From: Hyphomicrobiales bacterium
GTDB taxonomy: Bacteria > Pseudomonadota > Alphaproteobacteria > Rhizobiales > Rhizobiaceae
Length of the DNA stretch: 64,000 bases
Direction: 5' to 3'
Assembly: GCA_900470805.1 (NCBI GenBank)
Contig: UCCA01000007.1
Span: 84,770 to 148,769 of the forward strand
Under the pieces are notes generated by a model. The model was not told the DNA's origin and did not search any database. It worked only from the letters and a program-made list of their open reading frames with translations. Below, one piece after another: positions 23,667-54,850 of the stretch. A program made the position numbers and the translations under genes. Each line of letters begins with the position of its first letter. Within the stretch, counting starts at the first letter, position 1.

Positions 23667-24319
23667 GTGGCCGTATCGGCCATCATCCCACCAACAAGGA
23701 AGTCGACGACCTCCTTTTCCATTGCCTCCACGCCAGCCTGAATGTTTCCGTCAGAAAGCCTCTCCAGGCGGCTTCCCGGACCTACGTCCGTGACGGTGAG
23801 GACAATCGCCCCCACCATGAATACATAGCGCCAATAGAACGACTCTGGCTTGGGTGCCTGCGTTGCGAAGCTGAGCGCCTCAATAAATTTGGATGCCATC
23901 GGATCGAAGTGCCGCTGAATAATCGTGCTGGTCAGCGCTGATCGTTCAATGCGGTGCTGCAATATCAGCCGGGCCAATAGCTGCCCCTTTTCGGCAGGAT
24001 AAAGGTACGGCTTCACGAAGATCTTGATGATATCTCGGACGTCTGGCTTAGTGCCACCGTTCTTAGCGGCGGCAATCAATGCCTCAAGGGCAGCCAGACG
24101 CTCTGAATTCACCCTGGATGAAAGGCGATCGAAAACTGCTTCAGTGAGTTTGGTCTTGGAGCCAAAATAGTAGTTCACTGCCGCTACGTTCACATCTGCT
24201 GCTGCCGTAATCTCTCGAAGCGATACACCAAACCCCTTACGAGCGAATAACGATTCAGCTGTTTCAAGTATCCGGTCAGAGACTTCTGAGCCGATAGTGA
24301 AATCCCGTTGGTTGTCCAT
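23663..24319 (-). CDS. TetR-family transcriptional regulator of the catabolic island
   Basis: The 218-residue protein has a TetR helix-turn-helix ([21 protein letters not shown]) within the first 60 residues and a C-terminal ligand domain of the kind seen in CerR/PsrA-like regulators. GGGAG lies before the ATG. It sits between the CoA-transferase genes and the transporter/molybdenum hydroxylase operon. The two shared operators at 21161 and 30407 make it the likely local regulator, responding to a pathway intermediate or acyl-CoA; this is inference. Confidence 0.87.
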
Positions 24320-33198: not shown

Positions 33199-33215
33199 AC
33201 TTCATTTTTTGAAGT
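33199..33215. promoter_or_regulatory. 17-bp inverted-repeat operator between divergent operons
   Basis: ACTTCATTTTTTGAAGT is a perfect inverted repeat lying 87 bp before the XdhC gene and 100 bp before the CurA-like gene. It could control either or both directions; no clear -35 box adjoins it. Confidence 0.65.
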
Positions 33216-34361: not shown

Positions 34362-36032
34362 ATGTCAAACTCTTCCCCACTGAATGCTACGGGACCAAGG
34401 TATGAACAGACATTTCCGGTGTTCAATCAGCATGAACTCGATGTCCTGAAGGGCTTCGGAAAGCTCGTGAAATTTCAAGATGGCGAAACGATCTTGAAAG
34501 CAGGCGAGAGGAGCCCTGGGCTCTTCGTTATCCTAGACGGGCACGCCACAGTCGAGGTCAAAAACATCTTCGGTCAGGTCACACCGATTGCCGAGTATGG
34601 ACCAGGCGGCTTTATGGGCGAAACTGGCAACCTGTCTGGGCGGACAGCACTGGTGGATGGACGCGCGGAAGGAGAGACTGAGGCTCTGCTGATTGAGCCA
34701 GACCGACTTCGCTCTCTACTCATCGCCAACGCAGAGATCGGCGAACGCATCATGCGGGCGCTGATCCTTCGTCGCGTTAATCTGATCGAGGGTGCAACTG
34801 TCGGCCCGACTATCATCGGTTCCCGTGATCATCATGACGTCGTCCGCCTGCAGGGGTTCTTCAGACGCAATGGGCATCCGTTTGTCGCAATCGATCCCTC
34901 TGAGGACGAGGATGCAGCGGAGCTTTTGAACCGCGCTCACGCCGATCCGACCGCATCGCCACTTGTTGTGCTCGCCGATGGCAGCATTCTCGAAAATCCT
35001 TCGACCGAGGAAATTGCCTCGATCCTTGGGATGATGGCGGAGCCTAGCCGAAATCACTACGACGTAGCCGTCGTCGGCGCCGGACCATCAGGCTTGTCAA
35101 CAGCCGTCTATGCCGCATCCGAAGGTCTGAGCGTCGCAGTCTGCGACACGAGGTCGTTTGGCGGACAAGCGGGTGCAAGCGCTCGTATTGAAAATTACTT
35201 CGGGTTCCCTACGGGTATTTCCGGTTTTGCACTGACTGCTCGAGCCTACAATCAGGCTCAGAAATTTGGTGCTGAAATGATGATCCCAACGGAGATCAAG
35301 TCTTTGGACTGCACACGTCCACAGGGATACTTCGTGTTGAAGACAGCCGATGGACACGAGGTTCGGTCAAGGTCGATCGTAATCGCCAGTGGCGCATATT
35401 ACCGTCGCCCCGAGATCGACGGCTTGAAGGAGTTGGAAGGGCGTGGCGTTTGGTACTGGGCCTCACCCATCGAGGCAAACCTTTGCAAGGACCAGGAGGT
35501 TTATCTGATCGGCGGAGGCAACTCAGCGGGTCAAGCGGTAGTCTATTTGGCATCCCACGCTCGGACCGTGCATATGTTGGTGCGGGGTGAAAGCCTTGCC
35601 GCAAGTATGTCGAGCTATCTCGTTGATCGCATTCAATCTGCCCCGAACGTCACCATCCACTACAACACTGAAATCGACCATTTGCGGAGCGACGCCTCCG
35701 GTCTAACCGGGCTTACTCTTTTTGATAAGACATCAGGCAGCAGGCGCAGCGCCGATACCCGAAATCTATTTCTGTTTATCGGAGCCGACCCCACGACCGA
35801 ATGGCTGTCTGGCTGCGGCGTTGTCTTAGATCCTGCTGGCTTCGTAGCCACCGGGCCTTCGGAGGCGTTCCCCGCCGCCGCAGAGCTGGAGACATCCGTA
35901 CACGGCGTGTTTGCTATCGGAGATGTGAGATCAGGCTCCACTAAGAGAGTCGGTGCAGCCATCGGCGAAGGTGCGCAAGTCGTTGCAGCACTCCATCGGT
36001 TCCTCTCGCTTCGTCCTGCCTCGGTGGCCTGA
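34362..36032 (+). CDS. cyclic-nucleotide-domain/thioredoxin-reductase-like flavoprotein lacking the CxxC
   Basis: The 556-residue protein has an N-terminal cyclic-nucleotide-binding-type domain (about 15-140; FGQVTPIAEYGPGGFMGETG), a linker, then a thioredoxin-reductase-like FAD/NAD(P)H module with VAVVGAGPSGLSTAVYAASEG near 230 and VYLIGGGNSAGQAV. Where thioredoxin reductases have CATC it reads WASP (GVWYWASPIEANLC), so no redox disulfide is present and classical thioredoxin reduction is unlikely. Such fusions are a known but poorly characterised family. AAGGAG precedes the ATG; 17 bp separate it from the CurA-like gene. Confidence 0.87.
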   Translation: MSNSSPLNATGPRYEQTFPVFNQHELDVLKGFGKLVKFQDGETILKAGERSPGLFVILDGHATVEVKNIFGQVTPIAEYGPGGFMGETGNLSGRTALVDGRAEGETEALLIEPDRLRSLLIANAEIGERIMRALILRRVNLIEGATVGPTIIGSRDHHDVVRLQGFFRRNGHPFVAIDPSEDEDAAELLNRAHADPTASPLVVLADGSILENPSTEEIASILGMMAEPSRNHYDVAVVGAGPSGLSTAVYAASEGLSVAVCDTRSFGGQAGASARIENYFGFPTGISGFALTARAYNQAQKFGAEMMIPTEIKSLDCTRPQGYFVLKTADGHEVRSRSIVIASGAYYRRPEIDGLKELEGRGVWYWASPIEANLCKDQEVYLIGGGNSAGQAVVYLASHARTVHMLVRGESLAASMSSYLVDRIQSAPNVTIHYNTEIDHLRSDASGLTGLTLFDKTSGSRRSADTRNLFLFIGADPTTEWLSGCGVVLDPAGFVATGPSEAFPAAAELETSVHGVFAIGDVRSGSTKRVGAAIGEGAQVVAALHRFLSLRPASVA

Positions 36033-36034
36033 CT

Positions 36035-37768
36035 ATGAGAGTAGTCCTTGAGCCCGCCGCTGCTGAAACGGGTTCGACAGTTTTAGCAGGGACGCAGAAC
36101 AACCTCCAAAACAAGAGCAGATGGGGTGTCGTCACTCCAATCGAAAAGTCGGCCCCTGTTGAAGGACCACCCGCTCCGCCTCCATTCGTGCCAATGGCTC
36201 CTTGGAGATCGGCACTCTATTTTCTGTCTTCAGTGTTGTTCTTTCTGACACAGGGGCTGGGGATGAACCTCGCCCTGGCAAATCTCAATCAGATTCAAGG
36301 TTCGATCGCAGCAACGACGACAGAGGCAGCATGGCTGTCAGCAGCCTATATGGCCCCAAACGTCAGCTTGAGTATCATTTTGGTGAAAGTTCGAATGCAA
36401 TATGGCGTTCGTGCGATGGCCAAGGTGGCGGTTACCTGCTTCATTGGCGCTTCGGTTCTAAACCTTTTCATCTCGGATCTTCAGTCGGCTATTGTCGTGC
36501 GCTTCCTTAGCGGGATCGCCGCTGCTCCGCTCGCCACCCTTGGCTTCCTCTACATGCTGGAGATTATCCCCCCTCAAAAGCGGGGGACCATCGGGCTATG
36601 CCTCGTGACCATGAACACGTTGCTCGGCGCTCCACTGACGCGGCTAGTTTCTCCCACACTGATCGATTTCGGAGGATGGCGTGGCCTCTACACACTGGAG
36701 ATGTCGTTAGCGTTGTTCGTGCTCCCAATAATCTTTCTTTTGCCACTGACCGCTCCCCCGCGTGTTAAGGTGATTGTCGGCACGGATATCGTCAGCTACC
36801 TGTTCATCGCAGTTGGCTACGGCTGCGTAGCGGTAGCGCTTTCAGTCGGTCGCCCTTACTGGTGGTTTGAAGCCCCCTGGTTAGGTGAGATGCTCGTCGT
36901 CGCTGTGGCGTCCCTTACTATCGCAGCTATAATCGAACTACGGCGCGAGCATCCCCTAATAGATTTTCGATGGCTCCTATCTTGGCGCAACATCCATATC
37001 TTCGGGATACTTCTCATCTTCCGCCTCTTAGCAGGTGAGCAGTCCGCGATCGTGATGCTGTGGTATCAAAACGCCGGATTGCTCTTCGACCAACTGCAGA
37101 TGCTCTACCTTATCATACTGGTGTTTACAGTGGTGGGCGGCTTCATTTGCGCGGCTTTGCTCAATCAGGGATACAGTCGAAGCATCCAGATCGTCGCTTT
37201 AATCATGATCGCCGCTGGCGCTTTTATTGATAGTCAGACAACAAGTCTGACCCGCCCGGAACAGATGTACCTCAGTCAGGCACTAGTTGCGATGGGTGCG
37301 GCCATGTTTGTACCACCAACGTTGGCTGACTTCTTCAATTCCGCCTTTGCCAAAGGGCCCGCATACGTAGTGACCTTTTTTGTGGTTTTCATGTTCACAC
37401 AGGTCATCGGGGCTCTCATCGCCACGGCCTCTTACGGCACGTTCATTACGATCCGTGAGAAGTTCCACTCCAACATTCTGTCCGAGCAGATCGCTTTAAC
37501 TAACCCGATCGTCGCGAACCGGCTCAGCACGCTGGTGGCTCCATATGCGAAGGTCTTAGGTGATCCAGCTCAGTTGAACAGCGAGGGCTTGGCACTACTA
37601 TCCGCTCAAGTGACAAGGGAGGCGAACAGCCTCGCGTTTGGAGATGCATTCTTCCTGGTTGGAGCGATAGCGTTGACCGCTCTGGTCATAATGCTCGTTC
37701 ACCTCACCTTCCAATTCTGTCAATCGAAGATCGCAAGGCCCTCTGCATCTTCCGGCGAAGCCGCATGA
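36035..37768 (+). CDS. MFS drug exporter, DHA2 family (EmrB-like)
   Basis: The 577-residue protein starts 2 bp after the flavoprotein stop, has a proline-rich soluble N-terminus of about 60 residues, then about 14 hydrophobic helices as in EmrB. It lacks a strong ribosome-binding site, so translational coupling is likely. With the membrane fusion protein that follows it would form a tripartite efflux system, but no outer-membrane channel gene is in the window. The substrate is probably a hydrophobic or electrophilic compound, judged only from context. Confidence 0.84.
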   Translation: MRVVLEPAAAETGSTVLAGTQNNLQNKSRWGVVTPIEKSAPVEGPPAPPPFVPMAPWRSALYFLSSVLFFLTQGLGMNLALANLNQIQGSIAATTTEAAWLSAAYMAPNVSLSIILVKVRMQYGVRAMAKVAVTCFIGASVLNLFISDLQSAIVVRFLSGIAAAPLATLGFLYMLEIIPPQKRGTIGLCLVTMNTLLGAPLTRLVSPTLIDFGGWRGLYTLEMSLALFVLPIIFLLPLTAPPRVKVIVGTDIVSYLFIAVGYGCVAVALSVGRPYWWFEAPWLGEMLVVAVASLTIAAIIELRREHPLIDFRWLLSWRNIHIFGILLIFRLLAGEQSAIVMLWYQNAGLLFDQLQMLYLIILVFTVVGGFICAALLNQGYSRSIQIVALIMIAAGAFIDSQTTSLTRPEQMYLSQALVAMGAAMFVPPTLADFFNSAFAKGPAYVVTFFVVFMFTQVIGALIATASYGTFITIREKFHSNILSEQIALTNPIVANRLSTLVAPYAKVLGDPAQLNSEGLALLSAQVTREANSLAFGDAFFLVGAIALTALVIMLVHLTFQFCQSKIARPSASSGEAA

Positions 37769-37780
37769 AAGACCTCCCAC

Positions 37781-38845
37781 ATGTATAAGCTCATCCGTTC
37801 TCCACTCGAAGTGATCGCGGTCATTGTTGGGATCGGTGGTGTCCTTCTGCTGCTTTATGCTTGGCACCTTCCGCCTTTCGACACCTCGGTGGAGGCAACA
37901 GACAACGCATACGTGAAGGGCTATGTGACCATCGTGAGCCCGCAGGTCAGCGGATACATCACGGACGTGCCCGTTAAGGACTATCAAACTGTCAAGGAAG
38001 GTCAGCTGATCGCGAAGATCGATGATCAGATCTACGTGCAACGCCTTGAACAAGCGCGATCTGCCCTTGATGGCCAAAAAGCTGCGCTGCTGAACTCACA
38101 GCAGCAAGAACGCTCAGCACGAGCCAGCATTGCTTCTAGCGAGGCTCAGATCGACAGCGCGAAGGCTGCCGAAAAGCATGCTCAATTGTCCTGGGACCGT
38201 ATCGAGAACCTTCTCGCCAAGGGCATTTCAACGACAAGTGACTCCGATGCGGCTCAAGCTGGCCTCGATCAGGCAAAGGCTGCCGTCAACCAAGCCCAGG
38301 CCGGACTTGAAGTTTCCAAACAAAACTTGGCGGCAATTATTGTCAATCGTGCTTCTCTCCAGGCGGCGGTAAGCGGGGCAGAAGCGGCCGTGCACCTGGC
38401 CGATATCGACCTTCAGCACACCTCTATTACGGCGGCAAAGTCCGGAAAGCTCGGAGAAGTTGGCGTAAGACTCGGGCAATACGTTACCGCCGGGACCCAA
38501 CTCGTCGCGTTGGTTCCGCAGGACATTTGGGTAATCGCAAATTTCAAGGAAACCCAGCTAGACGGCATGAAAGTTGGCCAGCCGGTTACCTTCACCGTTG
38601 ACTCTCTCGGTCATGCGGAGTTGAAGGGCCAGATCGAGAGCTTCTCGCCCGCCGCTGGGTCAGAATTCGCAGTTGTCAAACCTGACAATGCGACAGGTAA
38701 CTTCACCAAGGTCGCACAGCGGGTAGGCGTGAGGGTTTCTGTCGACAGCTCGCAGCCACTTATAGCCCAGTTAGCTCCCGGGCTCTCGGTGGTGGTGTCG
38801 GTCGATAAAAACTCCGTGCCAGGACCGTCAGTGGCGTCGAAGTAA
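37781..38845 (+). CDS. HlyD/EmrA-family membrane fusion protein
   Basis: The 354-residue protein has one N-terminal membrane helix (about 8-30), a biotinyl-lipoyl-like segment (ATDNAYVKGYVTIVSPQVSG), a long coiled coil rich in Ala/Gln (about 80-200) and a beta-barrel with DTVDS-like FTVDSLGHAELKG. This is the EmrA pattern. It bridges the EmrB-like pump to an outer-membrane channel. It follows 12 bp after the pump gene. Confidence 0.9.
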   Translation: MYKLIRSPLEVIAVIVGIGGVLLLLYAWHLPPFDTSVEATDNAYVKGYVTIVSPQVSGYITDVPVKDYQTVKEGQLIAKIDDQIYVQRLEQARSALDGQKAALLNSQQQERSARASIASSEAQIDSAKAAEKHAQLSWDRIENLLAKGISTTSDSDAAQAGLDQAKAAVNQAQAGLEVSKQNLAAIIVNRASLQAAVSGAEAAVHLADIDLQHTSITAAKSGKLGEVGVRLGQYVTAGTQLVALVPQDIWVIANFKETQLDGMKVGQPVTFTVDSLGHAELKGQIESFSPAAGSEFAVVKPDNATGNFTKVAQRVGVRVSVDSSQPLIAQLAPGLSVVVSVDKNSVPGPSVASK

Positions 38846-38861: not shown

Positions 38862-39389
38862 CTAGGCATGAGCAGCCGCGTTCTTGATGCTCTTTGCTTC
38901 TTTGAACGAGGTCAGCTTCCGCTCACGCTCCTGCGCAAAGGCCTGGCTCATGACGACCTGGGTCTTTGCGAATTTTTCGAGATCGCTGTCTCCGAACGAT
39001 ACGAAGTTGTCGCGAACCGGCTTACCCGTCTCTTTGTAAACGAGCTTAGTCGCAGGCTCCTCGTCTGGACCGTAGTCACCCCATCTGAGGCCCCACGCCC
39101 TGACAGCCATCAGAACTCGATCAAGTTCCTGCCCCTTCTGGGTCGCGTAATATTCATAGCGTTTTGAACCGCCATCTGGCAGACGACGTTCAATGACGCC
39201 GTCGGCCTCCAACTGCTTCAGTCGGAGCGAAAGCAGGTGCGACGACATCCCAGTCTGCGCCTGAATGTCATCAAAACGTCGAGAGCCCATGCCAAGCTCT
39301 CTCATGATCAAGAGCGTCCATCGTTCACCTACGATAGACAGCCCTCGGGCGATAGGACACGTTGTGTCCGATACACCATCCCAGCTCAT
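38862..39389 (-). CDS. HxlR-family redox/electrophile-type transcriptional regulator
   Basis: The 175-residue protein has an HxlR winged-helix domain (about 10-105): CPIARGLSIVGERWTLLIMREL, then SSHLLSLRLKQLEADGVIERR and YEYYATQKGQEL. Cys11 lies where HxlR sensors such as YodB, HypR and QorR have their redox-active cysteine. About 65 residues follow the domain. GAAGGA precedes the ATG. It is convergent to the EmrAB-type operon and divergent from the unknown gene at 39597, with a 17-bp operator between them. It is the best candidate in the window for the repressor of the 12-site regulon; this is inference. Confidence 0.9.
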   Translation of the reverse strand: MSWDGVSDTTCPIARGLSIVGERWTLLIMRELGMGSRRFDDIQAQTGMSSHLLSLRLKQLEADGVIERRLPDGGSKRYEYYATQKGQELDRVLMAVRAWGLRWGDYGPDEEPATKLVYKETGKPVRDNFVSFGDSDLEKFAKTQVVMSQAFAQERERKLTSFKEAKSIKNAAAHA

Positions 39390-39519
39390 CTAAATCTTCC
39401 TTCGTCACAAGAATGCAATTGATATCCAAGGCGGTCCCACCCGTTCGGAAATCAACTTCCCTGCATTCGCACTTCACCCAAGCTTAAAATGGGCAAATCC
39501 GTTGACTTTCGCAAGAGAA

Positions 39520-39536
39520 ACTTCAAAAATTGAACC
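39520..39536 (+). promoter_or_regulatory. 17-bp inverted-repeat operator between HxlR and the 39597 gene
   Basis: ACTTCAAAAATTGAACC matches the family with a degenerate right arm. TTGACT at 39502-39507 lies 12 bp before it, the same geometry as at the DJ-1 and quinone oxidoreductase promoters, which supports a plus-strand promoter for 39597. It could also give HxlR autoregulation. Confidence 0.6.
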
Positions 39537-39596: not shown

Positions 39597-40016
39597 ATGA
39601 AAATTGGTGACACCTCAAGCATTTTTTCGACGCCAACCACCAAGGGCAAAACGCAAAGCCGCGACGACTCTGCATTCAGTGCTCTCCTTGGTTCCGTTGG
39701 TGACTCAGGCTCGACGGAGACCGTTCCGGGTGATTTGGCCAGCTCCAAAGACCAGAGCGGGCTGTCGATTTCTGGCGATGACGCCGATGCCCATCGGCAG
39801 GAATTGGTCGATGAGCTGCACAAATGGGCAAACATGAATCCAGCGGAAATGATAAGGGCCAAGTACCTCTCCGCACATAACCTGTCGGAAGACGCGCTCG
39901 CTCAGCTCCCGCCTGATGTCCGTCAACAGATTGAAGATGAAATTCGTAAACAGGTCGAGGAGCAGGCCAAGCAGCAAGGAAGCGCAAAAGACGCTCTGTC
40001 GGCCCTGACTGTATAG
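39597..40016 (+). CDS. hypothetical protein, small, hydrophilic, not recognised
   Basis: This 139-residue protein is not recognised. It is rich in Ser, Asp, Gln and Lys with no cysteine, no membrane span and no clear signal peptide. The first 65 residues look disordered; the second half is helical with a likely coiled coil (QIEDEIRKQVEEQAKQQG). GGAAATTTT precedes the ATG, and a promoter-operator unit like those of the stress genes lies 61 bp upstream, so it is probably expressed and a regulon member. A hairpin follows at 40036. No function is proposed. Confidence 0.7.
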   Translation: MKIGDTSSIFSTPTTKGKTQSRDDSAFSALLGSVGDSGSTETVPGDLASSKDQSGLSISGDDADAHRQELVDELHKWANMNPAEMIRAKYLSAHNLSEDALAQLPPDVRQQIEDEIRKQVEEQAKQQGSAKDALSALTV

Positions 40017-40118: not shown

Positions 40119-41108
40119 TCAGTCAGTTGTGACAAGGATCTTGCCAATAAGCTTGCCCGATTCCTGTGCCTCATGAGCCGCCGCGATCTCATCGAGTGAA
40201 TATTTGGCCGCTATCGCGGGCGCATATGCACCGGCCTGTAGACACTTGGTCAACGCGTCGACACCCGCCTGCTTGGCATCACTTGGTACAGAATAGACGA
40301 AGACGAAACGTATTAGGACTGCCTTCAGCATCGCTTTCAGGGCAGGTAAAGCAACAGCTTCCTTGGGATCGGCCGCAGCATAGCTCGAGATCACACCGTT
40401 TGTGGCGATACACAGCAGATCGGTCTGAATATTGGCAGCCAGGTCGACTTCCACGATCCTGTCGATCCCACCACCTCCTGTAGCCATCATAATGACCGTA
40501 GAGATGTCGTCGGTGCGACGATTGATCACGAGATCGGCCCCTGCCGCCTTGGCGACATTTGCTTGCTCGGGGCGGCTTACGGTGGTCGCGACCCAGGCGC
40601 CTGCCCACTTTGCCAGCAGGATCGCAGCAGTGCCGACGGCTCCGGCACCTCCCTGTATGAGGATCCTTTTGCCGCGAATGTCTCCATCGGCGAAAAGGCA
40701 TCGGTGAGCGGTGAGCGCAGGAATTCCCAAACAGGCCCCTGTTTCGAAGGAAACGTTGTCGGGTAGAGGAACGGCACGCTCGGCCGGAACTATCGTGTAT
40801 TGCGCGGCGGTCCCGGTAGGGCGTCCAGCCTGCGCCTCATAGAGCCACACTCTTTCTCCTATACGGGACGCCGGTACGCCTTCGCCGACTTCGTCGATTA
40901 TCCCCGCCCCATCCTGATGTGGAACAATGCGCGAAAAGGCCATCGGCGCCCCTCCATATCCTGCACGGGCCTTCAAATCAGTGGGATTGACACTTGATAC
41001 GCGGATATAAACCCTTACCTCGCCTGGCCCGGGTGTTGGATCAGGTAGGGCACCAACCTGCAAGACAGTCTTCGCGTCGCCTTGTCTTTCGTAAAACGCA
41101 GCTTTCAT
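40119..41108 (-). CDS. NADPH:quinone oxidoreductase, medium-chain family
   Basis: The 329-residue MDR protein begins MKAAFYERQGDAKTVLQVG, has GGAGAVGTAAILLAKWAGA as cofactor-binding segment and no zinc-site cysteines, as in quinone reductases. It would reduce quinones or enones in the cytoplasm. GAGAGG lies before the ATG. It has its own promoter with TTGACA and a perfect 17-bp operator 80 bp upstream. A third MDR protein after 16368 and 33316. Confidence 0.87.
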   Translation of the reverse strand: MKAAFYERQGDAKTVLQVGALPDPTPGPGEVRVYIRVSSVNPTDLKARAGYGGAPMAFSRIVPHQDGAGIIDEVGEGVPASRIGERVWLYEAQAGRPTGTAAQYTIVPAERAVPLPDNVSFETGACLGIPALTAHRCLFADGDIRGKRILIQGGAGAVGTAAILLAKWAGAWVATTVSRPEQANVAKAAGADLVINRRTDDISTVIMMATGGGGIDRIVEVDLAANIQTDLLCIATNGVISSYAAADPKEAVALPALKAMLKAVLIRFVFVYSVPSDAKQAGVDALTKCLQAGAYAPAIAAKYSLDEIAAAHEAQESGKLIGKILVTTD

Positions 41109-41187: not shown

Positions 41188-41204
41188 GCTTCAGTTATTG
41201 AAGC
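41188..41204 (-). promoter_or_regulatory. 17-bp inverted-repeat operator, quinone oxidoreductase promoter
   Basis: GCTTCAGTTATTGAAGC is a perfect repeat. On the minus strand TTGACA (41222-41217) lies 12 bp before it; with 17-bp spacing the -10 would be AATAAC inside the repeat. Confidence 0.75.
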
Positions 41205-41253: not shown

Positions 41254-43647
41254 TTAGGCGACCACCTCGATCTCGAAATCTTGTCCCTGCCAGTCGCTCC
41301 CCAGAGGCCAAAAAATGGCGAATTGAACGATCATACCGGCGGCAAAGGGCTTGGTATCGAGGTCAGCGATGAACGTGCTGAGCCCCGTGTCTATGGCATC
41401 CAGATCATGGGTTGTTTTCCAGCCATCGTTTGACCAATGGACCATTGCGGCCTCATCGAACTCGAAGCGGAGCAATCGCCCTAAGGGAATTTCGTCGATG
41501 ATCGCGCCCAGCCGCCATATTCGAGGAGCGAGCGGTGGCGTATTCCGAATATAGCGCTCGACAGTCTGAGGCGGCATGTCAAATACAATACCATCCCTAA
41601 GCGACCGCAGTAGTTTTATGTGCTCCGAATGGGCCCAGACTAAAGGCATAGCACTGCCGGAAGGCCTGCCTTGATAAAGTTCGCGTTCCGGAAGATCTGC
41701 GACGTCCCAGATCTGCTCCGGAAGCAATCCACCAGGACTTGCCGAAGCTTCGAGCGCCGCCAAGAGCCTTCGCGCCTCATCCGGACGGCCTGCCGCTAGT
41801 TCGAAATGTGCTCGTTCTCCTGTCAAGAGAGGCCAAAGACGGCCGACTCCAGTTCCGTTAAATGGCGAACCGTCTTCACGCTCGCCGTACCCGTCCTCGT
41901 TATAACGGTACCAGTAAGGACCGGCAGGAAGATCGCGTCTTAGCAGTGCGTCAATGGCCTTCACCGTATTCGCGATCTTGGGGTCGTCGGCTGCTCGAAG
42001 TCCGAACCGGACAAGCGCAAGAGCATCAGGACTTACGAGAAGACCTGCGTCTAGCATCAAACCCGCGTCCGTGCGGTTTTTGACAGGCACCATCGCTGGA
42101 GAGCGTGAATGGCCCTCCCCCGTAAAACTTCCGATCCGCATGTAGTAGCCATCGATGCCCAGTTCCTTAGCGAGGTCTGTACCGGTCGCATAAGTCCAGC
42201 TTTCGATCTGTTCGTTCCAGTTATCGGCTACTTGTCGGAGATATTCTGCTATCGAAATCTTACCGGTCGCCGCCATCGCATCAGCAGCCGCCAGGAGCGC
42301 CGCGATCTCAACGGCGAGCGTGAACGGCGAAAAGCCACCATCTTCCTCCCACCGATCCTGCTGTGTCGCTGGTCCGTTCCGGACTATATAGCTTGAGGCG
42401 CGAAGGATCATCGCGTCATAACGCCTTGCGTCACCCAGCCCAATCACGTTCTCGCGCCTAAGCATGTCGTACAGCAGGATCGGGAATGCCGTTTCGTCCA
42501 TCTGGACCCCATGCCAGTAGGCACGCCCGTCCAGCCACGAATTCTGTACCCAATGGCCATCACTTTCCTGTGTCGCCACCAAGTAATCCAGTACCGCGAG
42601 CGCATCGTCCGATGCACCAGCGGCAATCAAGCCGCCCGCCGTCTCAACGAGGTCTCGTGTCCATACCAGATGATAGCCGCCCAGATCGTCATCACCCTTT
42701 GTCGATCCCCACGGGATCGAGAGACTTGCGATGATTGCACCTGAGGCGTCGTCACGATGGGTCGCCAAAACAGATGTACTCACGCGGTAGCAGTTCAAGG
42801 TCTCTGGGTCATGTGGCTCATCGAGCGGCAGAAGCCCTCTCTGCCACTCCCGCCAACCTGCGCGGTAAACTTGCATAGCGTTGTCTAAGCCCTGTTGTAG
42901 GGTAAGCAGCGCACGAAATGCGGCCTCCTCTGGCTGTGTTCCAAAGCCAAGCGTCAAGAGCACGCGTCCATCCTCGGGCAGGTCGATCGTCCCTGCCAGA
43001 GCGACATTTCCATCTTCGGCACGCTGATATTCAGCTCGCACTCCCTCACCGCGCGAGAGGGTCTGCCATGCGTCCGATATACCCACAAAACCGGCAGATC
43101 GCGAGATCCAAGCAACTGATGACGCAACCGCTAGCGATCGACCGGTGCCCGTTGCGAAAAGCATCGGATTACCTTTGAAGTCATCATACCAACCAGTGTT
43201 GTTTGCGCCGCCATTTATCAGATGTGGTGAGACGATAGCGTGCAACCGATAGTCTTTGATCGAGCCAATCAAAGCCTCAAACTGAAGGTCCTGAAGGACC
43301 ACCTCGCGATCGGGATCGGAAAGGACGGTCTTCGTGATCCGATATCGCCCATCTTTTGAAGTGTTGATCAGGCGAAAAGCTGGAACGCCGTCCTCGATCG
43401 TTTCAACGACGTGATCGGCGTCGCGCTTTTCCTCGGAGAAGTATCCGTCGGCCGTTACAATGAAACCGAAGTCGCGAATGCTCGCCTGATCGAGGCGGGG
43501 GGCATAAACTTCATTGAGGATGCCATGGCTGGCAGTGAACCAGACACGTCCAGACGATCCGGCAGCCCGCCCCACTGCCGTCTTGTCGCTCGACGTCCAA
43601 CGTGGCGAGATGCCAGGCGCTCCTGGCGGAGTTATAGTGCTAGTCAT
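41254..43647 (-). CDS. glucoamylase (GH15 glucan 1,4-alpha-glucosidase)
   Basis: The 797-residue protein has the bacterial GH15 layout: an N-terminal beta-sandwich (APGISPRWTSSDKTAVG, GRVWFTASHGILNEVY) and an (alpha/alpha)6 barrel with GYHLVWTRDLVETAGG and the catalytic acid/base region PEQIWD near the C-terminal third. It releases glucose from the ends of alpha-glucans. No signal peptide is evident, so it may be cytoplasmic. The start at 43647 gives the family-like N-terminus; an ATG at 43686 would add 13 residues. It follows the RND pump gene by 44 bp, an odd partner. Confidence 0.88.
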   Translation of the reverse strand: MTSTITPPGAPGISPRWTSSDKTAVGRAAGSSGRVWFTASHGILNEVYAPRLDQASIRDFGFIVTADGYFSEEKRDADHVVETIEDGVPAFRLINTSKDGRYRITKTVLSDPDREVVLQDLQFEALIGSIKDYRLHAIVSPHLINGGANNTGWYDDFKGNPMLFATGTGRSLAVASSVAWISRSAGFVGISDAWQTLSRGEGVRAEYQRAEDGNVALAGTIDLPEDGRVLLTLGFGTQPEEAAFRALLTLQQGLDNAMQVYRAGWREWQRGLLPLDEPHDPETLNCYRVSTSVLATHRDDASGAIIASLSIPWGSTKGDDDLGGYHLVWTRDLVETAGGLIAAGASDDALAVLDYLVATQESDGHWVQNSWLDGRAYWHGVQMDETAFPILLYDMLRRENVIGLGDARRYDAMILRASSYIVRNGPATQQDRWEEDGGFSPFTLAVEIAALLAAADAMAATGKISIAEYLRQVADNWNEQIESWTYATGTDLAKELGIDGYYMRIGSFTGEGHSRSPAMVPVKNRTDAGLMLDAGLLVSPDALALVRFGLRAADDPKIANTVKAIDALLRRDLPAGPYWYRYNEDGYGEREDGSPFNGTGVGRLWPLLTGERAHFELAAGRPDEARRLLAALEASASPGGLLPEQIWDVADLPERELYQGRPSGSAMPLVWAHSEHIKLLRSLRDGIVFDMPPQTVERYIRNTPPLAPRIWRLGAIIDEIPLGRLLRFEFDEAAMVHWSNDGWKTTHDLDAIDTGLSTFIADLDTKPFAAGMIVQFAIFWPLGSDWQGQDFEIEVVA

Positions 43648-43691
43648 TTCGAGATCCCGCTGTTCGCAGCCCACAAGACGGGCCATTCACA

Positions 43692-46600
43692 CTAAGTTGC
43701 TTCTGACATGGTCGTCTTTCGTGGTTGCCACGGCCAAGGTCCTACGTGAGCCTTGGCATCAGCGGCGGCGTCGCCCGCAGGGCTCCCTCGTCCCGAGCGA
43801 AGAACCACGTAGAAGACAGGCGTTAGAAACAGACCGAATACCGTAACGCCGAGCATGCCAGAAAATACCGCCGTTCCAAGTGATTGCCGCATTTCTGAAC
43901 CGGGGCCCTCCGCAAACATCAACGGAACGACGCCAAGTATGAAAGCGAAAGCTGTCATAAGGATCGGACGCAGACGAAGATGGCTGGCCTCCACCGCCGC
44001 ATCAACGGCACTTTTACCTTCCAACTGCGCTTGCCGAGCAAACTCCACGATGAGGATGGCGTTCTTAGCGGCGAGGCCGATCAAGACGATGAGCCCAATC
44101 TGCGTGAGGATGTTGTTGTCCATACCGCGTATATCGACACCTACCAAGGCCGCAAGCACAGCCAGAGGGACGATAAGGATGATCGCCAAGGGTAGGATCC
44201 AACTCTCGTACTGGGCCGCGAGCGCGAGGAAGACGAAGACCACTGAAAGCGCGAAAATGTATATCGCGGTGTTGCCCGTGTTTTTTTGCTGATAGGCCAG
44301 CTCAGTCCATTGAACCGTCATTCCCGGAGGAAGGATATCCGCTGCCAGCTTCTCCATACTCGCCAGCGCACTGCCCGTGGAGTAGCCGGGCGCCGCTGTT
44401 CCTTGCAAAGGCACGGAGACATACATGTTATAGCGTTGGACCAGAGTTGGTCCGCTGGAATCCCTAATATCGACCAAGGTGCCAAGCGGCACCAAGGCGC
44501 CGTTAGCGGATCGTACCTTCAACGCGAGAATGTCTTCGCGATCCATGCGATACTTCGTGTCCGCTTGAGCCCTCACTTGAAACACGCGGCCAAAGGCATT
44601 GAAATCATTTACGTACGACGTTCCCAAATTTACCGACAGCGTGTCGAAAATGTTCGGGATCGGGACGTTCAGGACGCGAGCCTTATCCCGGTCTATATCC
44701 AAGTAGTATTGTGGGCTGCTGGCAGATGAAGTCGTATAAACTCCGGAAAGACCCGGTGTTTTGTTTGCTTGCCCCATCAGCTGATAAGCGAGCGGTAAAA
44801 GGCGGGACATGTCCGAGTTCTGGCGATCCATGATCTGCAGCTTAAAGCCACCGGAGTTGCCGATACCACTGACGGCAGGCGGTGGCACGACAATGATAAA
44901 AGCCTCTTGGATCATTTGAAGCTTTCCATACATCTGCTTGATCAGTTGGTCTGCGGATTGACCTTCTCGTAGCCGGTTTTCGAAGCTGTCAAAGCTGGCA
45001 AAAACGACGCCCGCGTTTGACGCGTTCGTAAAGGTTGCCCCACTGAAGCCTGCAAATGAAACAGCGTTTACGACACCTGGGACCGTGCGAATAACGTCGG
45101 AAGCCTGTCGTACCACGGCGTCCGTCCTTGCCAACGATGCGCCATCCGGGAGCTGAATAACAACGATCGCATATCCTCTGTCGATCGTTGGAATGAAGCC
45201 TTGTGGCACAACCTTTGCCATGTAGAGCGTTGCTCCCAACAGCGCGACGAAGACGACCAGCGATCCTGCCAGAGCCAGGCGAGTGCTAACCAGGCGCCGG
45301 ACGACCCACGCATAGCCTTCGCTTATGCGGTCGAAGCCCCGATTAAATCCGTCGGCAATGAATCCCGCTGACCGCGCAAAGATATTCGTGCGACCGTGGT
45401 GACCATGTGGCCTCAAGACAATCGCCGCAATCGCGGGCGATAGTGTCAGAGAGTTTAGCGCTGAGATTGCGGTTGCGACTGAGATCGTTACAGCAAACTG
45501 TCGATAGAATTGGCCCGAAATACCCGGTACGAAGGCAGTTGGCAGAAAGACCGCAATCAGGACCAGTGAAATGGCTAGAACTGCAGTCCCCACCTCGTTC
45601 ATCGTAACGTGGGCGGCTTCCAATGGATTCATCCCTTTGGCGAGGTTTCGTTCGACGTTCTCGACAACGACAATGGCGTCATCGACAACGATGCCAATTG
45701 CCAAGACGAGGCCAAACAGCGTCAGCAGATTGAGGGAGAATCCAAAAGCGGCCAGAAACGCGAATGTCCCTATGAGGGAGACGGGAATTGCAATGATGGG
45801 TATGATCGCAGTCCGCCATGACTGGAGAAACACAAGGACCACAATGGCAACAAGTACGGCTGCCTCGAAGATCGTCCGGTACACATCAGAAATGGAATCG
45901 GCGATAAATTCGGTTGGGTTATAGACGATGCGATATTCAAGGCCGTCTGGGAATTCTTTCGAGACCTCGGACATGGTTCTTTTGATGTCATCGGAGGCCT
46001 GGAGAGCGTTTGTTCCTGGCCGAGAAAAAATCGCCAGAGCAATCGCGGTCTTTCCTGACAGATAGCTATTGGTAACGTAATCCTTTGCTCCAAGCTCGAT
46101 GCGTGCGACGTCTTGAAGCTCAACCAAACGCCCTTGTGCGGTTGTCTTCACAATGACATAGCGGAACTGACGTGCATCGGAAAAACGCCCTTGCGTCGTA
46201 ACGGTGTATTGGAAGGCGTTGGCGCCAGGATTTGGTGGACTTCCCAAACTGCCGCCGGACACCTGTACGTTCTGATCACGTAGAGCCGCGACCACGTCGC
46301 TCGAAGTCATGCCGTACGCGGACAGTTTCTCGGGGTCGAGCCAGATGCGAATGGAGTATTCCCGCTCACCGACCAGATTGATGTCGCCGACCCCCTTGAG
46401 ACGGATAAGCTCGTCCCTCACCCGCGTGCGTGCGTAGTTCGAGATATAGAGCTGATCGTACCTGTTATTGGGCGACAGCAGATGCACAACCATCATCAGA
46501 TCAGGCGAGCTTTTGGTGGTTGTCACGCCAACTCGCTGGACTTCAGGCGGGAGGCGCGGCTGTGCAATGGCTACGCGATTCTGCACGAGCACCTGTGCCT

Positions 46601-46910
46601 TATCGAGGTCGGTACCGGGTGCGAACGTGATGGTGAGAGCTAGCGAGCCATCAGCCGTTGAGTAGGAGGACATGTAGAGCATATCCTCCACGCCATTGAT
46701 CTCCTGCTCGATAGGAGTGGCGACGGTATCCGCGATAGTCTGCGCATCCGCGCCCGGGTAGGACGTACGAACGACAATGGTCGGTGGAGCAATCTCGGGA
46801 AACTGCGCAATTGGGAGCGTCGTATACGCTATCCCGCCTACGATCAGGAGCACGATCGACAGGACAGATGCAAAGATCGGGCGGTCGACGAAGAAATGAG
46901 CAAATCTCAT
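43692..46910 (-). CDS. RND efflux permease (HAE1 / AcrB-MexB family)
   Basis: The 1072-residue protein begins MRFAHFFVDRPIFASVLSIV and has the two periplasmic loops and twelve helices of AcrB-like pumps, with GIVVDDAIVVVENVER in helix 4 holding the proton-relay aspartates and LIGLAAKNAILIVEFA in helix 10-11. It exports hydrophobic and amphipathic compounds by proton antiport. It overlaps the adaptor gene by 4 bp. No TolC-like gene is next to it, so it must borrow an outer-membrane channel. Confidence 0.95.
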   Translation of the reverse strand: MRFAHFFVDRPIFASVLSIVLLIVGGIAYTTLPIAQFPEIAPPTIVVRTSYPGADAQTIADTVATPIEQEINGVEDMLYMSSYSTADGSLALTITFAPGTDLDKAQVLVQNRVAIAQPRLPPEVQRVGVTTTKSSPDLMMVVHLLSPNNRYDQLYISNYARTRVRDELIRLKGVGDINLVGEREYSIRIWLDPEKLSAYGMTSSDVVAALRDQNVQVSGGSLGSPPNPGANAFQYTVTTQGRFSDARQFRYVIVKTTAQGRLVELQDVARIELGAKDYVTNSYLSGKTAIALAIFSRPGTNALQASDDIKRTMSEVSKEFPDGLEYRIVYNPTEFIADSISDVYRTIFEAAVLVAIVVLVFLQSWRTAIIPIIAIPVSLIGTFAFLAAFGFSLNLLTLFGLVLAIGIVVDDAIVVVENVERNLAKGMNPLEAAHVTMNEVGTAVLAISLVLIAVFLPTAFVPGISGQFYRQFAVTISVATAISALNSLTLSPAIAAIVLRPHGHHGRTNIFARSAGFIADGFNRGFDRISEGYAWVVRRLVSTRLALAGSLVVFVALLGATLYMAKVVPQGFIPTIDRGYAIVVIQLPDGASLARTDAVVRQASDVIRTVPGVVNAVSFAGFSGATFTNASNAGVVFASFDSFENRLREGQSADQLIKQMYGKLQMIQEAFIIVVPPPAVSGIGNSGGFKLQIMDRQNSDMSRLLPLAYQLMGQANKTPGLSGVYTTSSASSPQYYLDIDRDKARVLNVPIPNIFDTLSVNLGTSYVNDFNAFGRVFQVRAQADTKYRMDREDILALKVRSANGALVPLGTLVDIRDSSGPTLVQRYNMYVSVPLQGTAAPGYSTGSALASMEKLAADILPPGMTVQWTELAYQQKNTGNTAIYIFALSVVFVFLALAAQYESWILPLAIILIVPLAVLAALVGVDIRGMDNNILTQIGLIVLIGLAAKNAILIVEFARQAQLEGKSAVDAAVEASHLRLRPILMTAFAFILGVVPLMFAEGPGSEMRQSLGTAVFSGMLGVTVFGLFLTPVFYVVLRSGRGSPAGDAAADAKAHVGPWPWQPRKTTMSEAT

Positions 46911-48073
46911 CGGCCAACCTCCATCGAGGCTGCCTCAGGGGGGAGATCGTCGCGAGTTTGCGGAAGCTCTGTCATTTGAGAAGTGACCTTTGTGCCTGGT
47001 CGCGCTCGCATCAATCCTGTAACGACAATCGTCTCGTCACCGGTCAGTCCCTCGCGTATGGCTCGATATCCATAAAGGCGCGGCCCCGGCCGGACCGGTT
47101 TGGTGCTCACGGTTCCGTCGGTGCCGACAACATAGACCACACGCTGATTTTGATCCGATGCAATGGCCTCATCAGGAACGAGAATAGCGGTATATCTATT
47201 TGATGCTTCAACCTGGACACGGCCGAAAAGGCCCGGCTGCAATATAAGATCTGGATTTTTGAAACGGGCTCGAACCCTGATCGTACCTGAATCGCTATCG
47301 ACACGATTCTCAGCGAAGTTCAGGTCGCCTTTAAACGGCGGCTGGTTCGCGTCAGAGATTACGACTTGGACGGGAACTCCACCTCCCCCGAGCTGAAGGT
47401 CACTCCCACGTTTACGGGCTGTGTCCGCGAAATTTAGAAGTCGGCGCTCGTCAACGTCGAAATAGAAATCAATTGGATCAAGCGACACGATTGTCGTCAA
47501 CTCAGACTGATCCGCCTGGATCAGGTTCCCAGTGGAGATTAGTCTTCGGTCAACACGACCGCTGATGGGTGCGGTGATCTTCGTGTATTCGAGATCAAGC
47601 GCAGCTCGATCAACGGCCGCCTGTGCTCCGCGAACGTTCGCCTCTGCAGAAACCCACTCACGGCGGCGGTCATCAAGGATCGAAACTGATTGGCTGCCAT
47701 TTGTTGCCAAGGATTCCGCTCGTTTAAACTGCGCTTCTGCGTACGTCAGGCTCGATTTTGCGACCTCAAGTGCAGCATTCGCCTGGTTCAAAGCTGTAAC
47801 GAAAGGCCGCTGGTCGATAACAAATAGCAGGTCACCTTTCTTTACGAGTGCACCGTCTGTAAAATGCACCTCTTGCAGGTAGCCACCAACCCGGGCCCTT
47901 ACGGAGACCTGATCTACGGCCTGAAATCGGCCGATGAAATCGTCATTGTCGACCACCTCGCGTATCACTGGCTTCGCGACGGTTACTGCCGGTGGCGCAT
48001 TCTGTGCGATCGCAAGACCGCTCATGATGACGGGCGTCAACGAAATAGCGAATAGGGTGGCTTTCAGCTGCAT
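46907..48073 (-). CDS. RND efflux periplasmic adaptor (AcrA/MexA family)
   Basis: The 388-residue protein has a signal peptide (MQLKATLFAISLTPVIMSGLAIAQ), no lipobox cysteine, a lipoyl half-motif VRARVGGYLQEVHFTDGALV, an alpha-hairpin (about 95-165) and DLEYTKITAPISGRV for the second lipoyl half. It links the RND permease to the outer-membrane channel. The start has only a weak ribosome-binding site. A 107-bp gap separates it from the upstream isochorismatase-like gene, so it may be read through from the tandem operators or have its own promoter. Confidence 0.93.
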   Translation of the reverse strand: MQLKATLFAISLTPVIMSGLAIAQNAPPAVTVAKPVIREVVDNDDFIGRFQAVDQVSVRARVGGYLQEVHFTDGALVKKGDLLFVIDQRPFVTALNQANAALEVAKSSLTYAEAQFKRAESLATNGSQSVSILDDRRREWVSAEANVRGAQAAVDRAALDLEYTKITAPISGRVDRRLISTGNLIQADQSELTTIVSLDPIDFYFDVDERRLLNFADTARKRGSDLQLGGGGVPVQVVISDANQPPFKGDLNFAENRVDSDSGTIRVRARFKNPDLILQPGLFGRVQVEASNRYTAILVPDEAIASDQNQRVVYVVGTDGTVSTKPVRPGPRLYGYRAIREGLTGDETIVVTGLMRARPGTKVTSQMTELPQTRDDLPPEAASMEVGR

Positions 48074-48180: not shown

Positions 48181-48792
48181 CTAAAGCTTTGCGAGAAGGT
48201 CGTTCGTGCTCAGGATCGCGTGAGCGTAGGTTGGTCCATTTACGTTGAACGCGACATTCATCCCGTCGTGGCTGAAGGCTGCGGCACCGTCTCTGACAAG
48301 GGTGACATGATATCCCAGCTCCATACCGAAACGGGCGGTTGACTCGATGCAGCTGTTTGCGATCACCCCGACGAGAATGATCTTCTCAATGCCACGTTGG
48401 CGGAGTTGGAGGTCAAGGTCGGTGTTGGCGAAACCGCTTTGTGCCCAATGCTCCTGAACGACGACGTCACCATCCCTTGGCCCGAATTCTTCATTGAATT
48501 CGCCACCCCACGTTCCAACTTCGAACGCCTTGAGCGGTAAGCCGCTCTTCTGGAAGGGTGTCATATGCTTCCAATCGGCGAACGCATGCTCATGGGCGCG
48601 ATGGTGCGGCAAGATCAGTACCGATATGCCCGCAGTTCTGACGGCACTGATGATCCTTCGAAGATTGCCGAAGAAGTTCACGCTCTCGGCAGTCTCCCGG
48701 ATAGCTTCGAATAGTTTGCCGCCTTCTGTCATGAAATCGTTGTAGGGGTCGACGATCAGAAGTGCCGTGCGGTCAGTTTCATATTTTGTCAT
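48181..48792 (-). CDS. isochorismatase-family protein, catalytic lysine replaced
   Basis: This 203-residue protein has the family aspartate D15 (LLIVDPYNDF) and cysteine C148 (VIANSCIES), but Q113 stands where its tandem paralogue has lysine (VVVQEHWAQSGF against VIVKEHWSQSGF). The triad is therefore incomplete and the activity may be altered or lost. GGAACC precedes the ATG. It follows its paralogue (48810) by 17 bp, so the two probably form one transcript and perhaps a hetero-oligomer. Confidence 0.85.
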   Translation of the reverse strand: MTKYETDRTALLIVDPYNDFMTEGGKLFEAIRETAESVNFFGNLRRIISAVRTAGISVLILPHHRAHEHAFADWKHMTPFQKSGLPLKAFEVGTWGGEFNEEFGPRDGDVVVQEHWAQSGFANTDLDLQLRQRGIEKIILVGVIANSCIESTARFGMELGYHVTLVRDGAAAFSHDGMNVAFNVNGPTYAHAILSTNDLLAKL

Positions 48793-48809
48793 CAGGTTCC
48801 ACGCGTCCT

Positions 48810-49439
48810 TCAGACTGGCGACATGATATTGGCGATGACCTCGCTGGTGGTCAGTATTTCGTGCGCGAACATCGGACCGTTCACTTCGTGCGCAGCGTGC
48901 ATTTCTTCCATCGAAAAAGAAGCCGTCGCGTCTTTGACAAGTGTGACGTGGTAACCCAGCTCCATACCAAACCGACCGGTCGACTCCAGGCAGGTGTTGG
49001 CACGCAGGCCTACGAGTATGATTTTCTCGATGCCGTGCTGGCGGAGCTGTTCATTCAGGTCGGTGTTGGCAAATCCGCTTTGAGACCAGTGTTCTTTGAC
49101 GATCACGTCACCTGGTTGGGGGCCGAATTCAGGGTGCCACTCGCCGCCCCAACTTCCCTCAGCAAACGTCTTTAGGCGATCCGAAATCACATGTGTAGGG
49201 TTCATATGCTTCCAGCGAGCGAAGTCCCCGTCACGCGATCGATGATGTGGAACGACGAACACCTGGATTTTGGCTTGTCGCGCGGCCTTTGTGATCCGCC
49301 GAAGATTGTCAAACAGACCAACGGTTTGAGCGACATCCTTTATGCGGTCGTAGAGCTTTCCACCCTCGCTGAGAAAGTCATTGTAGGGATCGACCATAAG
49401 GAGCGCGGTCTCGTCACTCGGATATAGGAGGTCGGGCAT
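48810..49439 (-). CDS. isochorismatase-family cysteine hydrolase with complete triad
   Basis: The 209-residue protein has the full triad D17 (LLMVDPYNDF), K115 (VIVKEHWSQSGF) and C150 (LRANTCLES). It is about 60% identical by eye to 48181 and looks like a tandem duplicate. The likely chemistry is hydrolysis of an amide or imide through a cysteine thioester; the substrate is unknown. GGAAGC lies upstream of the ATG. Two copies of the 17-bp operator stand 34 and 73 bp upstream. Confidence 0.87.
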   Translation of the reverse strand: MPDLLYPSDETALLMVDPYNDFLSEGGKLYDRIKDVAQTVGLFDNLRRITKAARQAKIQVFVVPHHRSRDGDFARWKHMNPTHVISDRLKTFAEGSWGGEWHPEFGPQPGDVIVKEHWSQSGFANTDLNEQLRQHGIEKIILVGLRANTCLESTGRFGMELGYHVTLVKDATASFSMEEMHAAHEVNGPMFAHEILTTSEVIANIMSPV

Positions 49440-49473: not shown

Positions 49474-49529
49474 GCTTCAAAATAGAAAGCTAATTCCTCC
49501 GCGAGTCAACATGCTTCAAAAAAGAAAGC
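49474..49529 (-). promoter_or_regulatory. tandem 17-bp operators, isochorismatase pair promoter
   Basis: GCTTCAAAATAGAAAGC (49474-49490) and GCTTCAAAAAAGAAAGC (49513-49529) share the same degenerate right arm and have centres 39 bp apart. On the minus strand TTGACT (49509-49504) lies between them, 13 bp before the first-gene-proximal copy, giving the usual geometry. Two sites suggest cooperative binding. Confidence 0.68.
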
Positions 49530-49684: not shown

Positions 49685-50299
49685 ATGAGCCGTGTCTTGG
49701 TTCTGTTCGCACATCCCGGTCAGCGCCACTCGAAGGTAAATCTCGCAATGGCAAAGGCGGCAAACTCTGTTGCCGATGTGACCTTTGCAGACCTATACGG
49801 CGAATATCCCACGTTCGGAATCAATATCGATGTCGAGCAGACGCGGTTACTTGCCCACGACATAATCGTATTTCAGTTTCCTCTTTACTGGTATTCAACG
49901 CCATCCCTCCTGAAAGAGTGGCAGGATCTCGTACTTGAGTATGGGTTTGCCTATGGGCCGGGAGGTGACAAGCTCAAAGGCAAGAAGTTCCTTGCGGTGA
50001 TTACGACCGGTGGACGTCCAGCTGCCTACGACGCAGCCGTCAATCAGATGCACGGATTGAGAACCTTGCTGAGCCCCCTTCAACGGTCAATGGAAGTCTG
50101 TGGCATGACCTTTCTCTCGCCATTTGTCCTGTTTGGCGCGATCGACGCGAACACCGACGGGCGTGCACCCCTGCACGTACTGGCCTACCGCTCTCTTCTC
50201 GAGGCGTTGCGAGACGACACGATCGATCCAGGCGCTCCATCGCACGGTGACTTCCTGAAATACGACTTCATCCCGATGGGCAAGGAGACTGGAGCATGA
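49685..50299 (+). CDS. KefF/KefG-type flavodoxin-fold NAD(P)H oxidoreductase
   Basis: The 204-residue protein begins MSRVLVLFAHPGQRHSKVN and has VFQFPLYWYSTPSLLKEWQD and EYGFAYG, the pattern of KefF/KefG, which are quinone reductases and ancillary activators of Kef potassium efflux. GTGAGG precedes the ATG. The stop overlaps the KefC-like start (ATGA), so the two are translationally coupled. The first 245 bp upstream hold the tandem operators, which face the other way. Confidence 0.9.
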   Translation: MSRVLVLFAHPGQRHSKVNLAMAKAANSVADVTFADLYGEYPTFGINIDVEQTRLLAHDIIVFQFPLYWYSTPSLLKEWQDLVLEYGFAYGPGGDKLKGKKFLAVITTGGRPAAYDAAVNQMHGLRTLLSPLQRSMEVCGMTFLSPFVLFGAIDANTDGRAPLHVLAYRSLLEALRDDTIDPGAPSHGDFLKYDFIPMGKETGA

Positions 50300-52230: not shown

Positions 52231-52247
52231 GCTTTAATTAATGAAGC
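52231..52247 (+). promoter_or_regulatory. 17-bp inverted-repeat operator, MscS-type gene
   Basis: GCTTTAATTAATGAAGC matches the family with one changed base in the left arm, 74 bp before the MscS-type start. The gap 52189-52321 otherwise shows nothing. Confidence 0.62.
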
Positions 52248-54800: not shown

Positions 54801-54850
54801 CAAGCATGATGACCATCATGTTTGGTTGTTGATGCATGACGGTTATCATG
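54801..54850. promoter_or_regulatory. two palindromic operators between SDR and TetR genes
   Basis: CATGATGACCATCATG (54805-54820), flanked by CAAG and TTTG, matches the 19365 palindrome at 22 of 24 positions. A second, looser copy CATGACGGTTATCATG (54835-54850) keeps the outer CATGA/TCATG arms. Their place between divergent TetR and SDR genes suggests autorepression by TetR. Confidence 0.75.

Follow-up and report, generated by a model that had tools for sequence, protein, structure and literature searches.

The repressors QsrR, YodB and CatR, quinone sensors of the Firmicutes that belong to the MarR/DUF24 (that is, HxlR) family, have the same fold and family as the HxlR protein considered here, and a conserved N-terminal cysteine is found in both. 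The QsrR operator is GTATA-N5-TATAC, which would match a 5-N5-5 layout, although its half-site differs from the CTTCA of the present operator. In the accessible parts of the published accounts, the targets of these repressors are detoxification genes, quinone reductases included (PMC6798810, PMC12893000), and about five targets are named for QsrR (PMC6798810), against the approximately 17 operators predicted here in a single block. The same partial text reports that QsrR can form intersubunit disulfides via further cysteines, and that a one-cysteine QsrR variant undergoes S-alkylation (PMC12893000). In the present protein Cys11 is the sole cysteine; a second one, as used in the two-cysteine intersubunit disulfide, is absent, so that only a Cys11-Cys11′ disulfide could be formed, whereas S-alkylation of the single cysteine would, by analogy, be the likeliest chemistry of Cys11.

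Bacillus subtilis HxlR (7bzd, 7bzg) shares with our protein the family, Cys11 by number, and the DNA-binding helix alpha4, but it is an activator, unlike the repressor proposed here. According to the available portion of its description, the formaldehyde crosslink of the Bacillus protein requires Lys13 (PMC7835342); in our protein residue 13 is Ile (CPIAR), so the Cys11-Lys13 chemistry is not available as such, and formaldehyde sensing of the Bacillus type was rejected. The closest solved structures by sequence and fold are those of Pseudomonas aeruginosa PA1374 (4gcv) and PA1607 (2f2e), whose alignments with our protein reach into the C-terminal extension, but whose recognition helices carry other residues. 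A literature search, in which most subscription journals and all figures are uncovered and motif strings rarely match print, returned no title or abstract that names the operator or an HxlR regulon of this kind; one source, available in part, does name an HxlR regulon in its table on lactic acid bacteria (PMC3616900).

The window, that is, the whole stretch of 64,000 nucleotides that was analysed (positions prefixed C61 are those of its contig), contains hxlR on the minus strand at 38862-39389, encoding a winged-helix regulator of 175 aa with Cys11 and the recognition helix SSHLLSLRLKQL (residues 49-60; helix 50-62 in the structure model). The initial annotation had extended the gene to 38862-39536, and the HxlR protein is indeed found there, but the gene ends at 39389; the 147 bases at 39390-39536 are the DNA upstream of hxlR, with a one-mismatch copy of the operator. 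The protein matches PF01638 (E 9.3e-21, 73.9 bits against a cut-off of 20.8), a family with 15 domain matches in the source genome, and its structure model, in which residues 31-70 reach a pLDDT of about 90 and a helix (50-62) and wing strands are present, gives Foldseek matches to PA1607, YodB, HypR, QsrR-DNA and HxlR-DNA (an alignment-free model, mean pLDDT 43.9, was left out). The cysteine assigned to residue 11 is confirmed; as a distinguishing mark, however, it fails, being family-wide and present in 51 of 53 HxlR rows, and the argument from Cys11 was therefore dropped for picking out this protein. That it is the only non-TetR, one-component regulator of the window agrees with the 40 window proteins scanned, which are a part of the window's genes. 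The profile scan also gave a histidine kinase (58779-60473), after which come two response-regulator-like genes (60507-61638), named from their sequence alone.

The operator core, CTTCA-N5-TGAAG, is 15 bp long: conservation is highest in CTTCA/TGAAG, followed by A/T in the spacer, and weakens outward to TTAG, so that the 17 bp originally given for it were inexact, the 10 half-site bases being those that stand out. TTCA-N5-TGAA occurs nine times in the window, where 1.14 would be expected and none of 100 shuffles reaches nine, and eight of these copies are perfect CTTCA-N5-TGAAG. Counting perfect copies in the whole genome (6.49 Mb), there are 18 of CTTCA-N5-TGAAG, 11 on this contig and 7 off it, the latter being the same number as in the backwards control (7); of TTCA-W5-TGAA, with an A/T spacer, there are 12, this contig having 10 of them and the control 0; and the eight of CTTCA-N5-TGAAG with an A/T spacer are, every one, on this contig. 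The clustering of the palindrome on this contig is not due to chance. Where one mismatch is allowed, which was done on this contig (in the window it adds 39521 and 52232), 17 operators extend over 107 kb, from C61:71795 to 179283, once C61:73656, 159497 and 176339 are left out for their G/C-richer spacer or position inside a gene; no operator lies in the initial 60 kb of the contig, when up to one mismatch is allowed and four of the spacer bases must be A/T. By crude gene calls, 16 of the 17 are intergenic in a stretch of which only about 11% is intergenic, and the seventeenth (C61:92138) falls in the presumed over-long start of a gene call.

On the left of the window, the operator CTTCAAAATATGAAG (4101-4115) stands upstream of a DJ-1/PfpI gene (3338-4072, minus strand), and CTTCAATTAGTGAAG (4211-4225) upstream of a Polyketide_cyc2/SRPBCC-type gene starting at 4254 on the plus strand, which is followed by flavodoxin-like reductase, isochorismatase-like hydrolase and SDR genes. 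OsmC, enoyl-CoA hydratase and alpha-beta hydrolase genes lie behind CTTCAATAAATGAAG (7369-7383). The sequence CTTCATTTTTTGAAG is found at 9574-9588, upstream of [2Fe-2S], molybdopterin dehydrogenase and cytochrome c genes; at 20332-20346, 203 bp upstream of a glutathione S-transferase gene (19452-20129, minus strand); and at 33200-33214, with an XdhC-like gene (minus strand) on one side and ADH, thioredoxin-reductase-like, MFS and HlyD genes (plus strand) on the other, among which the thioredoxin-reductase-like enzyme with a cNMP domain, the MFS transporter and the HlyD-type adaptor occupy 34362-38845. Further to the right, CTTCAGTTATTGAAG (41189-41203) precedes a zinc-type dehydrogenase (40119-41108, minus strand), CTTTAATTAATGAAG, with one mismatch (52232-52246), precedes an MscS-cNMP gene at 52322 (plus strand), and CTTCAAAATTTGAAG (56003-56017) has the gene 55450-55941 (minus strand) on one side and a thiolase at 56089 (plus strand) on the other. 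The zinc-type dehydrogenases behind operators we take to be of the quinone-oxidoreductase kind. Two weak candidates with two mismatches each, CTTCAAAATAGAAAG (49475-49489) and CTTCAAAAAAGAAAG (49514-49528), share the intergenic region between two isochorismatase-like hydrolase genes (48181-49439, minus strand, from the profile scan) and KefF-like reductase and KefC-like antiporter genes (49685-52188, plus strand; best NCBIfam models, under the curated cut-offs); in G134, one of two genomes of the genus (the other is G116) that carry a matching block, a site with one mismatch lies between the matching genes. Taken together, and by analogy with QsrR and YodB, the genes that bear operators fit a defence against electrophiles and quinones.

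The remaining copy of the window is that of hxlR itself, CTTCAAAAATTGAAC (39521-39535), with counterparts in G116 and G134; it lies between hxlR and a divergent ORF of 139 aa (39597-40016, plus strand) downstream of it, for which the family-model scans gave no match above the curated cut-off. A short protein at C61:77429-77986 is likewise found downstream of an operator. The operator copy that the initial annotation placed in this intergenic region is thus present, but it has one mismatch, it is 131 bp from the hxlR start, and its TTGACT, 19 bp ahead of the core on the plus strand, faces ORF 39597-40016; being apparently placed for that divergent ORF, it leaves autoregulation uncertain here.

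TTGAC stands 18-19 bp ahead of the core at 5 of the 17 sites (4101, 4211, 39521 and 41189 in the window, and C61:84241), where about 0.3 would be expected (34 strand-sites × 2 spacings × 0.0045), in a comparison whose spacing was chosen after inspecting the sites and in which other spacings also gave single matches. It reads TTGACG at 18 bp for 4101, on the minus strand, and TTGACA at 19 bp for both 4211 and 41189. At these five sites the operator centre coincides with the position of the -10, which makes repression likely, and HxlR would thus probably act as a repressor. The opposite possibility, that HxlR binds the operators as an activator, or as a repressor at some and an activator at others, seems unlikely: it could invoke Bacillus subtilis HxlR, which is an activator whose DNA binding is enhanced by formaldehyde (PMC7835342, in its accessible part), and the 12 of 17 sites that have no -35 match at the repressor spacing, but it would have to accommodate the operator covering the expected -10 at five promoters, and the quinone sensors YodB, QsrR and CatR are termed repressors in the available text (PMC6798810, PMC12893000).

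The explanation that we favor, with a probability of about 0.9 for the recognition of the DNA by this protein, is that HxlR would bind as a dimer, each subunit setting the tip of its recognition helix (S49, S50 and H51) on a CTTCA half-site. Where a promoter has a clear -35, the palindrome lies over the -10 and the bound protein would block RNA polymerase, and in this way a single HxlR would hold down some 17 operators across an accessory block of 107 kb rich in genes of the electrophile- and quinone-defence type, until released by an inducer reacting with Cys11, most likely an electrophile, a quinone or an aldehyde. The operator would probably have spread over the block from an ancestral pair formed by hxlR and an isochorismatase-like hydrolase gene. 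The comparisons show how the operator is distributed and conserved, that it accompanies this HxlR lineage and that it goes with the type of recognition helix; the dimer binding, the repression, the inducer, the chemistry of Cys11 and the direction of spread are the parts of this explanation that we infer, and for thiol sensing by Cys11 the odds would be roughly even.

The evidence that points to HxlR comes from distant homologues. A total of 41 HxlR homologues (38-48% identity) were gathered without reference to the motif, 8 from genome contigs, 2 from the order, 17 from the phylum and class, and 14 from 21 plasmid hits (H8 and H15-H20 were left out), a set that is incomplete, since no more than 8 or 9 candidates of each genome were scored when the order, the phylum and the class were searched. 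A perfect CTTCA-N5-TGAAG occurs within 250 bp upstream of hxlR at 7 of the 41 loci (G201, G238, Pseudomonas brenneri, G1063, G1051, G1157 and Sphingomonas panacis), with a mean of 0.013 and a maximum of 1 in the dinucleotide-shuffle control, and three further loci have a site with one mismatch. In 6 of the 7 the site is 8-31 bp from the estimated hxlR start, which fits autoregulation. When all 1024 half-sites of the 5-N5-5 form were ranked over the 41 loci, CTATG came first (11), followed by CTTCA (7) and then by counts of 4, 3 and 1; in L079 and L085, in addition, a run of hydrolase and hxlR genes is preceded by a perfect CTTCA site. Against the explanation preferred here counts the fact that 23 of the 41 homologues have no perfect copy of either operator. 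Neither operator was found upstream of nine HxlR paralogues of the source genome (out of its 14 other HxlR matches), where the best sites have at least two mismatches.

These distant promoters also bear on the rival proposed at the outset, a LysR activator encoded elsewhere that would use TTCA-N5-TGAA as its T-N11-A site. The sequence does satisfy that rule, and the genome has at least 73 LysR-type matches (150 of 185 first-look candidates scored), but the only one of them on this contig, C61:206295, is beyond the operator range of 71.8-179.3 kb, no LysR gene being linked to the operator sites, and for none of the called genes that surround it (g152-g170) is there a match in the G116 and G134 stretches compared. 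The perfect A/T-spacer sites are, moreover, confined to this contig, at five promoters they sit over the -10 and not upstream of it, and the distant HxlR genes carry the identical site, all of which makes a LysR protein extremely improbable.

The second half-site ranked above, in the form CTATG-N5-CATAG, marks the HxlR clade that neighbors the CTTCA one in a tree of 53 HxlR rows, on which the CTTCA and CTATG labels need one change each, in 86% of bootstrap trees. The tree labels cover 13 CTTCA rows, L079 and L085 not among them; in the column comparison these two were put in the CTTCA group, because their site is upstream of the gene run and not within 250 bp. The CTATG clade shares with the window HxlR the operator layout, the position at the hxlR promoter and, in one case, the kind of hydrolase neighbor, but differs in the half-site and in the helix, which is mostly ATPQM or GTPQM instead of the MSSHL or MSPHL of the CTTCA group (MSSHL in the window protein). 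All 15 CTTCA rows have Ser at position 49, where all 17 CTATG rows have Thr or Gly; at position 51 the former have His, Phe, Tyr or Asn and the latter Gln. The association between operator and helix amounts to a single evolutionary change, so that outside the helix, too, at least one column (105) separates both clades, and direct contact is supported though unproven. The window HxlR has the Ser49 and the CTTCA operator of its clade, its own upstream copy with one mismatch. The proposal of HxlR as the candidate regulator is strongly supported, both by the CTTCA palindrome at distant hxlR promoters and by the sister clade with CTATG and a changed helix, and the window HxlR very likely recognises CTTCA-N5-TGAAG.

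Perfect CTATG-N5-CATAG sites are found at L077, L078, L081, L087, L092, L093, L102, L104-L106, L108, L116 and L117, the last two of which stand outside the 41 and are those, among five distant HxlR genes from the genus, for which a locus was available, and sites with one mismatch at L072-L076 and L086; the hosts of this clade include Pseudomonas, Rhizobium, Sinorhizobium, Microvirga, Variovorax and Paraburkholderia. C-terminal cysteines with zinc-ribbon-like spacing are present in the HxlR relatives L067, L068, L094, L097, L099, L101, L103 and L112, and absent from the window HxlR, L071, L079 and L085.

TetR dimers likewise bind palindromes of this size, and one of the TetR proteins of the block (20416-20979, 54836-55453, 23663-24319, or g62 to the left of the window) could be thought to bind this one, the more so as these genes are kept in all three copies of the block. 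The co-inheritance of the HxlR and TetR genes with the block means that co-occurrence in the genus cannot tell the candidates apart. However, the upstream regions of all four TetR genes have 3-4 mismatches at best, and among homologues of 20416 and 54836 (the two genes that this comparison took in) a perfect site is found upstream in 0 of 21 distinct loci, and one with a single mismatch in 1 of 21, that of L082, where it is nested in a longer palindrome of the CATGATG type, apparently the TetR's own operator. On a Lichenicola plasmid (354 kb) there are a homologue (62%) of the 20416 TetR and seven more places that resemble genes of the block, yet no operator in 40.5 kb of it and no HxlR match at the limit used. 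A TetR protein as the regulator is accordingly very unlikely. Upstream of the 20416 TetR gene (window 20980-21160) there is a candidate TetR operator, TTCAAACATATGTTTCAA, and palindromes of the CATGATG type are found upstream of its Paraburkholderia relatives (L082-L084).

Within the genus, 23 of 148 genomes have at least one A/T-spacer copy of the operator, and clusters occur in three: the source genome (8), G116 (6) and G134 (4). G116 and G134 carry the matching gene block, of about 100 kb, in which most matched genes have 65-100% identity and some genes are absent or inserted, and only in these three genomes is HxlR found at 89% identity or more, five other genomes of the genus having HxlR proteins at 40-45% (E 1e-30 or better in both cases). 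Counterparts near matching genes exist for 13 of the 17 operators in G116 and for 9 of the 17 in G134, counts that exclude the counterparts given for C61:125958 in G116 and for 78097 in G134, which belong to neighboring sites, and also 71952, for which the intergenic site of both relatives is beyond the 450-bp limit of the script; as for 179283, the G116 stretch stops short of it, and matching genes are absent from G134. Operator 41189 has no counterpart in either relative, and it adjoins a stretch with glucodextranase and RND-pump genes that is absent from both. The glucodextranase and RND efflux genes themselves (41254-48073) have no match in the G116 and G134 block copies.

Among 22 loci of the genus that were examined for their copies of CTTCAW5TGAAG, two belong to the block (L051, L054) and seven to another arrangement, the rest being mostly inside crude gene calls. 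In that arrangement (L039, L041, L044, L045, L047, L050, L055), the gene for a MarR-like protein of about 200 aa is divergent from an ABC transporter, with sites of the CTTCAAA(A/T)(A/T)TTGAAG type between them, the family names being read from the sequences. A MarR regulator could on these grounds (7 of 22 loci) be held responsible for the operators of the block, but the best match to that MarR in the source genome is of 41% and partial length, the 3.4 kb around it have no site under two mismatches, and the seven genomes have one or two sites each, with no cluster of tens of kb. Hence this reading deserves scarcely any weight, and the MarR/ABC site is apparently a convergent operator.

In the case of HxlR, the palindrome precedes some 17 gene sets, many of them for detoxification, and the protein would very probably be the shared switch of an inherited block. 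HxlR-family regulators are common, but those described, as far as the accessible sources go, control few genes; here, a regulator, its operator, about 17 predicted sites and a sister clade make both binding specificity and the growth of a regulon testable, and a large uncharacterised block of the quinone, aldehyde and electrophile type, in rhizobial relatives, is tied to one likely sensor. It is somewhat favored, with less assurance than the recognition itself, that a local HxlR switch of one gene became the master repressor of a co-inherited electrophile-defence block of about 100 kb as its operator spread to some 17 promoters, with a helix code in which SSH would correspond to CTTCA and TPQ to CTATG. 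If so, two or three helix residues would be enough to swap the half-site, with the layout kept and, in one case, also the partner gene.

As regards that partner, two CTTCA sites, one of them perfect and the other with a single mismatch, lie between the paired hydrolase and hxlR genes of Pseudomonas brenneri, and Paraburkholderia largidicola has a pair of isochorismatase-like hydrolase and hxlR with two perfect CTATG sites. Isochorismatase-like relatives of 61-70% identity stand beside hxlR in P. brenneri and Paraburkholderia sp. 22B1P, and the hydrolases of these three hosts are 52-70% identical to the window proteins encoded at 48181-49439. Finally, a cyclic-nucleotide-binding domain is fused, in the window, both to the thioredoxin-reductase-like enzyme (34362-36032) and to the mechanosensitive channel (52322-53833).
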